Below are positions 24,773-30,036 of a DNA stretch of 64,000 bases, piece by piece. The DNA comes from Myxococcus xanthus (GTDB taxonomy: Bacteria > Myxococcota > Myxococcia > Myxococcales > Myxococcaceae), in contig NZ_FNOH01000012.1 in the NCBI RefSeq assembly GCF_900106535.1, forward strand, positions 186,001 through 250,000. Direction: 5' to 3'. Under the pieces are notes generated by a model that was not told the DNA's origin, ran no database searches, and worked only from the letters and a program-made list of their open reading frames with translations. Every line of letters starts with the position of its first letter. The stretch's first letter is position 1. The translations under genes were made by a program, and so were the position numbers.

Positions 24773-24863
24773 GGAGTGTCCAGCAAGAGGGAGGTCGCGT
24801 CATCCATGACGGAATGGCCCTCACTTGCCATACCCACGGTGCACCAGACAACTGAAGGAGGAG

Positions 24864-24936
24864 TGGTCCTGGCAGGAGTCGAACCTGCGGCCTCTCGGTC
24901 CGCAACCGAGTGCTCTATCCCCTGAGCTACAAGACC
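24864..24936 (-). tRNA. tRNA-Arg with anticodon GCG
   Basis: A complete 73-base cloverleaf: acceptor GGTCTTG/CAGGACC with one G-T pair, D stem GCTC/GAGC, anticodon stem CTCGG/CCGAG, and loop TTGCGGA giving anticodon GCG (codon CGC). The T arm is GCAGG TTCGACT CCTGC and the discriminator is A. The D-loop A and discriminator A fit arginyl identity. CCA is not encoded. Most bacteria read CGN with an ACG (inosine) tRNA, so GCG is unusual. Confidence 0.88.
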
Positions 24937-24978
24937 GGAACTGCGACTGCGAGAGCGCCCCAGCCACGAGGCGCGGTG

Positions 24979-25041
24979 TCAGAAGGAAGCGATGCCGTCG
25001 AACAGGTCTTCCGGCTCGGACTCGATGGGGAGGGGATTCAT
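24979..25041 (-). CDS. 20-codon ORF between two tRNA genes
   Basis: ATG 25041, with GAGG 10 bases upstream, opens a 20-codon frame starting MNPLPIESEPEDLF and ending at TGA 24979. It is acidic and lies between the GTC tRNA-like gene and tRNA-Arg. Its surroundings (TGACG, CCC, ATGAATCCC) resemble the same stretch in the two leader-type ORFs of this region, which contain TSPMNP. It may be a decayed relative of those. Translation is unproven. Confidence 0.35.
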   Translation of the reverse strand: MNPLPIESEPEDLFDGIASF

Positions 25042-25062
25042 GGGCGTCACCTCGGGGATGAG

Positions 25063-25134
25063 CGCTCCGACAGGGAATCGAACCCTGTTCACACGGTAGA
25101 CGGCCGTGCTGCGATTCCAATCGCATCCCGGAGC
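25063..25134 (-). tRNA. tRNA-Asp-like gene (anticodon GTC, C33)
   Basis: A 72-base cloverleaf folds with acceptor GCTCCGG/TCGGAGC, D stem TGCG/CGCA, anticodon stem CACGG/CCGTG, loop CCGTCTA (anticodon GTC) and T arm CAGGG TTCGATT CCCTG. The discriminator is G. The anticodon and G73 fit aspartate. But position 8 is G instead of U, position 33 is C instead of the near-universal U, and position 37 is a pyrimidine. These suggest a degenerate or specialised tRNA rather than a decoding one. Confidence 0.6.
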
Positions 25135-25148
25135 AGTGGGGTTGACCC

Positions 25149-25190
25149 GGAAAAGAAAGAGGCCGGGTCCCCTCGGGGAGCCCGGCCTCT
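25149..25190 (-). terminator. Conserved intrinsic terminator, cassette 1
   Basis: On the minus strand a perfect 10-bp stem (AGAGGCCGGG/CCCGGCCTCT, 25158-25190) is topped by a further TCCC/GGGA stem. It is followed by TTTCTTTT (25149-25158). It lies after the 50-codon ORF and 15 bases before the GTC tRNA-like gene. A near-identical copy is at 29656-29697. Confidence 0.75.
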
Positions 25191-25228
25191 TGCCTGCCAT
25201 GCCCTGTCCTTCGACGGGGCACGGTGGG

Positions 25229-25381
25229 TCAAAACCCAGGCGGGAGATCTCGACGGGAGGTCGCCCCCCGCTTGGAATCACGAGCGGTGGCCCGGCCAGC
25301 GAGTGCGAGCGCATCGATGCCGATGACAGTATCGTTCAGGGTGTCGGGATTCATCGGGCTCGTCAGGTTCGCCGTCTTCAT
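25229..25381 (-). CDS. Leader-type small ORF, cassette 1
   Basis: ATG 25381 follows the strong ribosome site GAAAGGAGCGGTGGCC and opens a 50-codon frame. Residues 1-22 (containing NLTSPMNPDTLNDTVIGI) match the second copy at 29735-29881 in 20 of 22 positions. Synonymous differences (CTG/TTG, GAT/GAC) occur inside identical residues. The remaining 28 residues, DALALAGRATARDSKRGA and onward, are unrelated to the other copy and are basic. This conserved head plus variable tail is the pattern of precursor peptides. No modification enzyme is adjacent. It is followed by a terminator and two tRNA genes. Confidence 0.55.
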   Translation of the reverse strand: MKTANLTSPMNPDTLNDTVIGIDALALAGRATARDSKRGATSRRDLPPGF

Positions 25382-25464
25382 GGCCACCGCTCCTTTCATG
25401 GGAAATGGACGCAATGGCCGCACAGGGCCTGACAGGCTGTGCACGGGCTGAAGACAGGGACGCG

Positions 25465-28434: not shown

Positions 28435-28764
28435 CTAGTGCGCGTCCCCGCCGCTGGTGAACTTCAGGCCGATGACAGAGACGACCATGAGTCCGAGGAA
28501 GAAGAAGCGCCCCAGTGTGGCCGGCTCACGGAAGAGCACGATGCCAACAAGCGCGGCGCCCAAGGCCCCAATTCCAACCCAAACCGCGTACGCAGTTCCG
28601 GCCGGCAGCGTGCGCATCGCAATGGACAGCAGCGCCAAGCTGCTAATCAACGTGACGGCAACAAAGAGACTGGGCCAAGGCCGGGTGAAGCCCTGCGTAT
28701 ACTTGAGGCCCACAGCCCAGCACGTCTCCAGCAACCCAGCAACGAGAACAAGCAGCCACGACAT
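28435..28764 (-). CDS. gdx: SMR-family guanidinium exporter
   Basis: The 109-residue protein has four membrane helices and the small multidrug resistance signature. The central Glu in helix 1 (LLETCWAVGLKYT) and the spacing of Trp, Gly and Lys match the SugE/Gdx branch rather than EmrE. Gdx proteins exchange guanidinium for protons. The assignment is reinforced by a guanidine-III riboswitch directly upstream. GGGG lies 9 bases before ATG 28764. It is a lone gene, so it probably works as a homodimer. Confidence 0.92.
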   Translation of the reverse strand: MSWLLVLVAGLLETCWAVGLKYTQGFTRPWPSLFVAVTLISSLALLSIAMRTLPAGTAYAVWVGIGALGAALVGIVLFREPATLGRFFFLGLMVVSVIGLKFTSGGDAH

Positions 28765-28782
28765 GACGCACCCCTGGTCAGG

Positions 28783-28822
28783 GCGTCGTCTTACGTAACC
28801 GGGTACGGCGCATCTCGTCCGG
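28783..28822 (-). promoter_or_regulatory. Guanidine-III riboswitch
   Basis: The minus strand reads CCGGACGAGATGCGCCGTAC, then CCGGT, a short spacer and AAGACGACGC. This follows the ykkC-III consensus almost base for base: the CCGG pair closing the first hairpin, ACGA, GCGCCGTACCCGG and the distal AAGACGxCGC that forms the pseudoknot. It ends 18 bases before the gdx start, so binding of guanidinium should expose the ribosome site. Confidence 0.85.
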
Positions 28823-28827
28823 GCAGG

Positions 28828-28851
28828 GCTGCAATCTGAACTGATTGCAGC
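28828..28851. promoter_or_regulatory. Perfect 9-bp inverted repeat upstream of riboswitch
   Basis: GCTGCAATC, a six-base spacer TGAACT, and GATTGCAGC form a perfect inverted repeat just upstream of the riboswitch. It may be an operator or part of the promoter region; without a T-tract a terminator is less likely. Confidence 0.4.
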
Positions 28852-29455: not shown

Positions 29456-29529
29456 TGCCGCGGGCGGGATTCGAACCCGCACGATCTGCATTCTGAGTGC
29501 AGTGCCTCTACCAGTTGGGCTACCGCGGC
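29456..29529 (-). tRNA. Class I tRNA with anticodon CAG
   Basis: A 74-base cloverleaf with acceptor GCCGCGG/CCGCGGC, anticodon stem CTGCA/TGCAG, loop CTCAGAA (anticodon CAG, T33 normal), T arm GCGGG TTCGAAT CCCGC and discriminator A. CAG is a leucine anticodon. But the variable region is only five bases, whereas bacterial tRNA-Leu has a long extra arm. The D stem is weak (GCC/GGC). Charging with Leu is therefore uncertain. Confidence 0.78.
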
Positions 29530-29566: not shown

Positions 29567-29638
29567 AGCGGTCGACGGGATTCGAACCCGTGTTCACCTG
29601 GATGGCGACCAGGGGCCTGACCACTCGGCCACGACCGC
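29567..29638 (-). tRNA. tRNA-Gly-like gene (anticodon GCC, C33)
   Basis: A 72-base cloverleaf with acceptor GCGGTCG/CGACCGC, D stem GCC/GGC, anticodon stem CCTGG/CCAGG, loop TCGCCAT (anticodon GCC), T arm ACGGG TTCGAAT CCCGT and discriminator T. Anticodon, U73 and G1-C72/C2-G71 fit glycine. Position 33 is C instead of U, as in the GTC tRNA-like gene of cassette 1. It stands 18 bases after the cassette 2 terminator. Confidence 0.62.
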
Positions 29639-29655
29639 ATGTGCTGCCACGACCC

Positions 29656-29697
29656 GGAAAAGAAAGAGGCCGGGTTCCCTCGGGGAGCCCGACCTCT
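29656..29697 (-). terminator. Conserved intrinsic terminator, cassette 2
   Basis: This is the second copy of the hairpin at 25149-25190. The stem AGAGGCCGGG/CCCGACCTCT has one mismatch, the same inner TCCC/GGGA stem and the same downstream TTTCTTTTCC on the minus strand. The flanking GCCTGCCATGCC is also conserved. It sits between the small ORF and the GCC tRNA-like gene. Confidence 0.72.
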
Positions 29698-29734
29698 GGC
29701 CTGCCATGCCACGTCGATGGACGGGCGAAAGGCG

Positions 29735-29881
29735 TCAGAGTCCGGGCCATCTACCGCCAATGGGTAGACCAGGCAGCACGGGAGCGGGCAGCAGGGCGAC
29801 GGGCGCGAGCACGCCGATGCCGATGACAGTGTCGTTCAAGGTGTCGGGATTCATCGGGCTCGTCAGGTTCGTCGTCTGCAT
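29735..29881 (-). CDS. Leader-type small ORF, cassette 2
   Basis: ATG 29881 follows GAAAGGAGCGGTGAC and opens a 48-codon frame. Its first 22 residues differ from copy 1 only at positions 2 and 4 (K/Q, A/T). The tail (GVLAPVALLPAPVLPGLP, then IGGRWPGL) is hydrophobic and Pro-rich, unrelated to the basic tail of copy 1. The upstream 5' untranslated DNA is also conserved. Head conservation with tail divergence suggests a peptide family or a reused expression leader. No partner gene is recognised nearby. Confidence 0.55.
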   Translation of the reverse strand: MQTTNLTSPMNPDTLNDTVIGIGVLAPVALLPAPVLPGLPIGGRWPGL

Positions 29882-30036
29882 GTCACCGCTCCTTTCTGTG
29901 AAAAATGACGCGCTGGAAGCGCGGGGCCTGACACGGCACCACGCCTGTCACCGGCCCGGCCAGCGGATGGGGTAAGAAGGCCCTGGAGCCTGCGCCGCCT
30001 CCCCCAGGCCGAGGTCACCCGGGCGGCGTCCCCTCG

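Follow-up and report, generated by a model that had tools for sequence, protein, structure and literature searches.

Predicted ribosome-sensing attenuators in front of spare tRNA arrays in Myxococcus xanthus and its relatives

In the attenuators of amino-acid operons (trp, his, thr, ilv), a small open reading frame (ORF) carries control codons, and the position of the ribosome on it decides whether an antiterminator or a terminator forms. T-box riboswitches choose between the same two structures by binding tRNA directly, without translation. The leaders of tRNA arrays described here share with the former both the ORF with control codons and the choice between antiterminator and terminator; they differ in that their output is tRNA genes rather than enzymes, and in that their control codons span up to 19–20 amino acids and follow anticodons. 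With T-boxes they would have in common that the state of tRNA settles the choice, although we propose a translated leader as the reader instead of direct tRNA binding.

The arrays themselves also have precedents. The closest are the L-arrays, such as the trn operon of Anabaena sp. PCC 7120: clusters of supernumerary tRNAs of many isotypes that lie beside a housekeeping set and are thought to serve during translational stress, the cyanobacterial array being silent in standard culture and induced by such stress (PMC10272220). The arrays of Myxococcaceae resemble them in their many isotypes and in lying beside a housekeeping set, and may likewise serve under translational stress; a related HNH gene lies beside arrays in cyanobacterial plasmids. 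The known control of the Anabaena operon, however, is the TrcR repressor at its promoter, and the main text of PMC10272220 makes no mention of a leader, attenuation or a terminator, whereas the Myxococcaceae arrays are split into sub-sets, each behind a codon-matched leader. Phage tRNA arrays, described as replacements for cleaved host tRNAs (PMC7824862), are likewise spare tRNAs, sometimes beside the same HNH family, but no such leader was seen by eye at two phage loci (L270, L271). Attenuators and stress-induced tRNA arrays are each known; of their coupling our literature search found no description, a mention in the L-array literature being possible.

The stretch of DNA analysed – hereafter the window – comprises 64,000 nucleotides of contig NZ_FNOH01000012.1, from a draft genome of Myxococcus xanthus (9.26 Mb in 91 contigs). 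A first-pass annotation had noticed, on its minus strand, a ribosome site followed by a 50-codon ORF, a terminator and a tRNA-like gene with C33, and the same order again at 29567–29881; coordinates, folding and ARAGORN bear out both, the second copy having a 48-codon ORF, a terminator and a tRNA-Gly with C33. Both cassettes run from a promoter-like site through a ribosome site, a leader ORF and an intrinsic terminator to two tRNA genes:

25408–25434, minus strand: copy 1, promoter-like element TGTCAGG-N16-CGTC (motif search)
25385–25397, minus strand: copy 1, ribosome-binding site GAAAGGAGCGGTG
25229–25381, minus strand: copy 1, leader ORF of 50 codons with a tail rich in D and R
25231–25241, minus strand: copy 1, predicted 5' strand of the antiterminator, GCCUGG.UUUU, at the ORF end (fold; partner 25180–25190)
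25197–25224, minus strand: copy 1, hairpin inside the antiterminator (fold)
25151–25190, minus strand: copy 1, intrinsic terminator (fold −29.1 kcal/mol, z −4.3)
25062–25134, minus strand: copy 1, tRNA-Asp(GUC) with C33 and U37, degenerate by Rfam score (ARAGORN)
24863–24936, minus strand: copy 1, second tRNA, tRNA-Arg(GCG) (ARAGORN)
29907–29933, minus strand: copy 2, promoter-like element TGTCAGG-N16-CGTC (motif search)
29884–29896, minus strand: copy 2, ribosome-binding site GAAAGGAGCGGTG
29735–29881, minus strand: copy 2, leader ORF of 48 codons with a tail rich in G and L
29736–29748, minus strand: copy 2, predicted 5' strand of the antiterminator, GGCCCG..CUCUG (fold; partner CAGAG..CGGGCU, 29698–29686)
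29658–29698, minus strand: copy 2, intrinsic terminator (fold −25.4 kcal/mol, z −4.0)
29567–29638, minus strand: copy 2, tRNA-Gly(GCC) with C33 (ARAGORN)
29456–29529, minus strand: copy 2, second tRNA, tRNA-Leu(CAG), 74 nt, without a long variable arm (ARAGORN)

The tails of the two ORFs had been called unrelated, which is true of the order of their residues and untrue of their content, for they track the tRNAs downstream: Asp and Arg together account for 10 residues in leader 1 and 3 in leader 2, Gly and Leu for 9 and 14. A third cassette lies on another contig (G000:C6), with six tRNAs by ARAGORN (Tyr, Ile, Met, Gln, Ala and Leu) and an HNH gene 21 nt past the last of them. The hairpin, taken by its sequence alone, is an ordinary terminator, and as a conserved unit it was rejected, a similar terminator being present at G000:C13 without a cassette. 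The Rfam T-box models have no match at gathering score in the whole window, nor in a lax search of 24800–25450.

We read the cassette as a ribosome-sensing transcription attenuator placed before an inducible spare tRNA set, and put the probability of this reading at roughly 83%. It draws on four features of the sequences: the architecture, the matching of amino acids and codons, the complementarity and compensation of the antiterminator, and the identity elements that the tRNAs retain. Polymerase would start at the GTCAGG promoter and a ribosome would translate the leader. Were all its codons read, the ribosome at the stop codon would cover the 3' end of the ORF, the terminator would form and the tRNAs would stay silent. 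Were a tRNA for one of its codons scarce – cleaved, lost or uncharged – the ribosome would stall upstream, the free ORF end would pair with the 5' arm of the terminator, and polymerase would run on into the array, whose tRNAs, if used in protein synthesis, would make good those depleted. The spare tRNAs would thus probably be switched on only when ribosomes are short of exactly those tRNAs. As natural trigger we lean somewhat towards loss or cleavage of tRNA, because more tRNA would be useless against amino-acid starvation. Where arrays split or shrank, leaders would have split too, each keeping the codons of its own array.

Cassettes were catalogued in stretches around leader hits by the key AAAGGAGG?CGG, provided that an ATG came no more than 26 nt and a stop no more than 300 nt later; keys lacking such a stop were left out. 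The catalogue holds 102 cassettes from 46 genomes of the Myxococcaceae family, each with 1–26 supernumerary tRNA genes behind it and none without tRNAs. Leaders with other ribosome sites escape the key, among them three true ones (L150, L152 and L157), and five leaders found via the HNH gene likewise stand outside the 102. The tRNA counts are those of ARAGORN, which overlooks degenerate genes, and they leave out Ser tRNAs that follow the HNH gene beyond the gap limit. A profile of the leader matched 56 of 195 genomes of the phylum at E ≤ 0.01, of which 53 are credible, all within the window's own family (96 of whose genomes were searched); the matches in G160 and G107 (E about 0.009) were rejected, as was that in G088 (E 3.6e-4), which has neither ribosome site nor tRNA on that strand. 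In a single-leader scan of named genomes, with at least four loci, leader 1 recurs identically in Myxococcus sp. CA023.

Some genera carry nearly every isotype in one array (26 tRNAs of 19 isotypes in L087), and Myxococcus-like genomes divide the set into three classes, which we name A (Tyr, Ile, Lys, Gln, Asn, Cys, Phe, Thr, Met and others), B (Gly, Ala, Leu, Pro, Asp, Glu) and C (Glu, Arg, Val). In genus g6 (L088, L100, L173–L178, L182) the array has shrunk to Trp(CCA), sometimes with Tyr, and a leader with a single Trp codon is retained.

As in a leader-peptide attenuator, the control codons are related to the product of the operon. In 99 of 102 cassettes the leader contains every amino acid of its own array, the exceptions being Glu, absent from the leaders of L086 and L099, and Tyr, absent from that of L145. 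Leaders were swapped within the 27 genomes that have several cassettes (83 cassettes, 2000 swaps): mean amino-acid coverage was 0.988 with the own leader versus 0.895 with swapped ones (sd 0.015; best of 2000, 0.953). Within-genome swaps likewise lowered the share of anticodons with a readable codon in the leader, from 0.949 to 0.802 (best of 2000, 0.877). Isotypes private to one array are enriched in its leader in 84 of 86 within-genome pairs and in 23 of 25 genome means. Of the amino acids that could be tested (19), 18 occur more often in leaders with the matching tRNA in their array – Tyr in 31/32 leaders with the tRNA and 13/70 without, Trp in 19/19 and 38/83, Glu in 30/32 and 27/70 – and Thr, across the 102 leaders, is not. 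These counts rest on related sequences, and the within-genome designs leave in the shared descent of leader classes. The five leaders found via the HNH gene and not by leader similarity, which come from genera g3 and g7, lack none of the isotypes in the arrays they precede.

The match extends to codon choice. When two arrays of one genome have the same isotype with different anticodons, the codon log-odds are positive in 16 of 16 genomes (0.25 to 2.53). Leaders of arrays in which CAG is the sole Leu anticodon (22 cassettes) spell 0.52 of their Leu residues as CTG, those of GAG+CAA arrays (11) 0.04. The share of CGG among Arg codons is 0.04 ahead of GCG arrays (20) and 0.36 ahead of CCG+CCT arrays (13), and that of GAA among Glu codons is 0.67 where UUC is the only Glu anticodon (3 cassettes, 9 codons) and 0.20 where CUC is (24). 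In a pooled test, Ala and Gly codon choice showed no excess over expectation from pooled leader usage and does not track anticodons, and to 60 of 624 array tRNAs, chiefly Arg-CCU, Gly-CCC, Ala-UGC and Leu-CAA, the leader offers no codon that they could read. All 20 amino acids occur in six of the 102 leaders (0–20 of 2000 shuffles each), as they do in 21 of 2953 50-residue windows of proteins encoded in the window. Since one of the six, L177, precedes a Trp-only array, we prefer the matching tests as evidence.

These tests also bear on a broader reading, in which any slow-down of ribosomes, by antibiotic or starvation, would open the array and codon sensing would be unimportant. The Anabaena tRNA operon does answer translation inhibitors (PMC10272220), and a ribosome stalled anywhere ahead of the ORF end would have the like effect here, but general stress sensing does not predict that leaders match their own array in amino acids and codons within one genome, and we consider it unlikely.

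Our preferred reading, in which the codons matter, further calls for a switch, and the short ORF with its ribosome site does lie directly upstream of an intrinsic terminator. The ORF's 3' end and the terminator's 5' arm, judged by complementarity and compensatory changes, are predicted to form the antiterminator. In copy 1, GCCUGG.UUUU can pair with AGAG.CCGGGC, partly through G-U pairs; in copy 2, GGCCCG..CUCUG can pair with CAGAG..CGGGCU, and the pairing extends into the stop codon. Both fold as antiterminators when only the 5' arm of the terminator is present (z −2.1 and −2.4). Folding and pairing were assessed in the first 65 cassettes (64 for pairing, 62 for probabilities). With the 5' arm alone transcribed, the ORF end is the predicted partner of the arm core at probability > 0.5 in 55 of 62 cassettes (median 0.98) and the antiterminator is not favoured in the other 7; with the full hairpin present, the terminator wins in 60 of 62; and with the ORF end removed, which mimics a ribosome at the stop codon, it forms in all 62 (0.80 or more). 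By folding, then, a mutually exclusive antiterminator would lie in a segment that a ribosome can cover in 55 of 62 cassettes, subject to the GC-richness of these sequences: another stretch of the same ORF pairs better with the arm in 37 of 64 cassettes, only 30 of 64 ORF ends score above 95% of their shuffled versions, and the arm core, once the ORF end is taken away, still finds other partners (median 0.66). Two Asp/Arg leaders stop early, at 40 codons, and their antiterminators are weak (0.33 and 0.41).

Among cassettes, own pairs of ORF end and arm average −19.9 kcal/mol versus −19.2 for permuted ones, and 5 of 5000 permutations were as good. One base pair of the antiterminator covaries (U-A 27 and C-G 11 versus C-A 4 and U-G 1; Fisher 2.5e-6 with relatedness ignored, and with three groups left out: 31 class A leaders, 24 whose arm is not CAGRG and 4 whose tested base is A or G). 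Moreover, the arm is extended to GCAG in 30 of 31 leaders that end in UGC-UGA versus 5 of 47 others. Together with the leader/array match, this pairing lends strong support, at the level of sequence, to the suggestion already made in the first-pass annotation that the leader is an attenuator controlling tRNA transcription.

The same annotation had also considered that the ORF encodes a precursor or otherwise functional peptide, with the tRNAs serving its synthesis or modification. A conserved head with a variable tail, and residues that match the tRNAs, would suit such a peptide, and the frame is open in 102 of 102 leaders, partly a consequence of the search key. Constraint on the peptide is weak, however: among 37 non-overlapping pairs, counted over ORFs of equal length, 106 single-change codons are synonymous and 194 non-synonymous, a synonymous share of 0.35 versus 0.26 expected. 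That synonymous share and a ribosome site that stays constant across cassettes speak for a translated frame; the peptide itself has considerable freedom to vary, as one would expect in the leader of an attenuator. Pfam and NCBIfam scans of two leaders gave no match, and no RiPP modification gene was seen by eye among the neighbours of the window copies; the combination of conserved leader, modification genes and peptide selection that marks a RiPP precursor is not found. The tails track the array tRNAs, pairing with the terminator seems to dictate how the ORF ends, and the terminator sits between ORF and tRNAs. The precursor peptide was rejected on these grounds, and a functional peptide of any such kind strikes us as extremely improbable.

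It had further been considered that the head might be conserved as RNA. Over 244 overlapping pairs, its changes by codon position number 550, 544 and 336, and because third positions vary less than first and second, part of the conservation may lie at the codon or RNA level; the 37 non-overlapping pairs show little such difference (56, 56 and 50). Copies with nonsense mutations or without an open frame had been named as evidence against coding. Two decayed copies were seen – L147, with an early stop, and L161, whose usual ribosome site is gone – and at neither locus does ARAGORN place a tRNA on the strand in question, in keeping with an ORF whose role depends on the presence of its array.

Like L-arrays, the arrays are dense clusters of supernumerary tRNAs, up to 26 per array (just two in each window array), beside a housekeeping set, which in this genome comprises 47 further distinct tRNAs. 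Two tRNAs, Ile(GAU) and Ala(UGC), were seen in arrays alone, perhaps because rRNA operons are missing from the draft. Of 465 distinct array tRNAs, acceptor pairs are 98.8% intact, and the discriminator base agrees in 400 with what we take to be the bacterial table. Glu tRNAs have A73 in 28/28, as the 3' ends of this genome's housekeeping Glu genes seem to have; Gln tRNAs deviate, with U73 in 15/21; and Ala tRNAs keep G3:U70 in 34/38. Base 33 is not U in 100 of the 465, versus 1 of the 47 others, and the C33 of the window loops CCGUCUA (tRNA-Asp) and GCGCCAC (tRNA-Gly) is real. Such odd loops are conserved by isotype: CCGUCUA in 14/15 Asp, CACUCUC in 15/20 Glu(CUC), GCGCCAC in 18/23 Gly(GCC) and UCGAGAR in 23/24 Leu(GAG) tRNAs. 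Our guess is that they might escape tRNA-cutting enzymes. The tRNA-Asp of copy 1 falls below the Rfam tRNA gathering score, and its best match in a lax search is tRNA-Sec, at 26.6 bits against a cut-off of 47; being below both cut-offs, it is taken as a degenerate tRNA.

Degenerate tRNAs, lost members and decayed copies, along with the HNH-linked tRNAs of phages Mx1 and Rctr197k, might indicate that the arrays are decaying remnants of phage or plasmid arrays with no present function. Against this stand the identity elements, the leader/array match and the switch, retained across several genera, and decay of this kind is in our view very unlikely.

Upstream of the leader, 98 of 102 cassettes have GTCAGG at a distance of 36–38 nt from the ribosome-site motif, and TGTCAGG-N15/16-CGTC has 15 matches in the genome versus 2 for the reversed pattern. 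A promoter motif common to the cassettes would be expected if an alternative sigma factor or a repressor were the sole control, leader and terminator being incidental, and the cyanobacterial operon is indeed repressed at its promoter by TrcR (PMC10272220). Promoter control alone nevertheless predicts neither codon matching nor compensatory pairing, and it can coexist with attenuation; that it acts by itself is hardly credible.

By raw counts, variants of the motif also stand upstream of a metallophosphatase (12/12 loci, in a slightly looser form), an R2K ATP-grasp protein (7/10) and an AAA_33 kinase (4/12, or 8/12 if GTCAG suffices), which makes the motif-linked genes a possible RNA-stress regulon. 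Both the kinase and the phosphatase show some likeness to segments of bacterial Pnkp, with scores well short of the curated cut-off, and the phosphatase is closer to ApaH than to Pnkp. The targets that TrcR represses in Anabaena include RtcB, RsgA and RimK besides the tRNA operon (PMC10272220), a parallel which suggests that the Myxococcaceae promoter group may be a response to tRNA damage. The R2K protein was tried as an RNA ligase and rejected, R2K proteins being predicted peptide ligases (PMC7824862). On a DNA-damage regulon as owner of the motif, the searched text of PMC12288472 mentions neither GTCA, nor a consensus, nor tRNA. In the window's own genome (L277, L280, L281, L282, L285) the motif is seen before the metallophosphatase and R2K ATP-grasp genes and also before exoribonuclease-like, YqeY-like and polynucleotide-kinase-like genes.

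The HNH gene (Pfam HNH_5) served us as a marker for further arrays, not as an explanation. Where a cassette has it (L006, region 1512–2078; L086; L087; and 30 others), it begins 19–24 nt past the last tRNA in 31 of 33 cases and 45 nt past it in two; the endonuclease may spread or protect arrays. It is widespread, in 143 of 195 genomes at E ≤ 1e-30 with distant paralogues included; at many of its loci ARAGORN finds no tRNA, and its plasmid matches L273 and L274 have none. More arrays lie beside it in further genera and families. Three genomes of greater distance have an ORF without sequence kinship ahead of a GGCCGGG terminator, and these leaders cover 14 of 14 (L247), 12 of 14 (L234) and 15 of 18 isotypes (L242, with the shorter of two possible starts). 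In Myxococcus phage Mx1 and virus Rctr197k an HNH homologue follows a tRNA-Leu at 13 and 21 nt, which suggests that the module is exchanged with phages.

On cyanobacterial plasmids, 15 records hold a related ORF of 70–73 residues at 16 places, of which 13 were inspected and 11 are intact, with the ORF, an ORF end capable of pairing, a terminator arm and 11–26 tRNAs. The segment around GCGGGAGGUG (GCGGGCGGUG in L327) can pair with the arm ACCCCCGC; the terminator comes before the HNH gene and the tRNAs after it. The plan is that of the Myxococcaceae leader and the sequence is unrelated. All 20 amino acids occur in 11 of 11 intact leaders, which is not significant (869 of 5000 column shuffles equal it; 15–29% of nucleotide shuffles of five single leaders contain all 20). 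The leaders (L272, L324–L327, L330–L332, L334–L336), from Nostoc, Calothrix, Tolypothrix and Kovacikia, are annotated as hypothetical proteins or unannotated. At L333 an insertion element interrupts the locus behind a read-through ORF and that strand has no tRNAs; at L337 the script found no ORF, and there are no tRNAs.

A wider proposal, on which we are evenly divided, is that leaders in two phyla act as inventory sensors for tRNA, spelling the anticodons of their own arrays (up to 20 amino acids in some 50 codons), each array opening when its own tRNAs are lost. In Myxococcaceae these leaders would share their promoter with the Pnkp-like kinase, the phosphatase and the R2K ATP-grasp ligase and form with them a tRNA-damage response, and the sequence-unrelated version would guard plasmid arrays of Nostocales under a TrcR-type promoter. 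If the leaders do sense tRNA supply, it would become clear how bacteria tell that their silent spare tRNAs are needed: the leader would read out the tRNA pool, sensor and product being kept in step over evolution, and for each cassette one could predict directly which lost tRNA opens which array. tRNA arrays would be tied to attack by tRNA-cutting toxins and to phage defence, and the leader would be a natural, programmable sensor of single tRNAs.

Between the two window cassettes lies an ordinary Guanidine-III riboswitch (Rfam, 47.1 bits; 28780–28837, minus strand), and 3' of it, at 28435–28764 on the same strand, an ORF of 109 residues that by eye resembles an exporter of the small multidrug-resistance type (Gdx).
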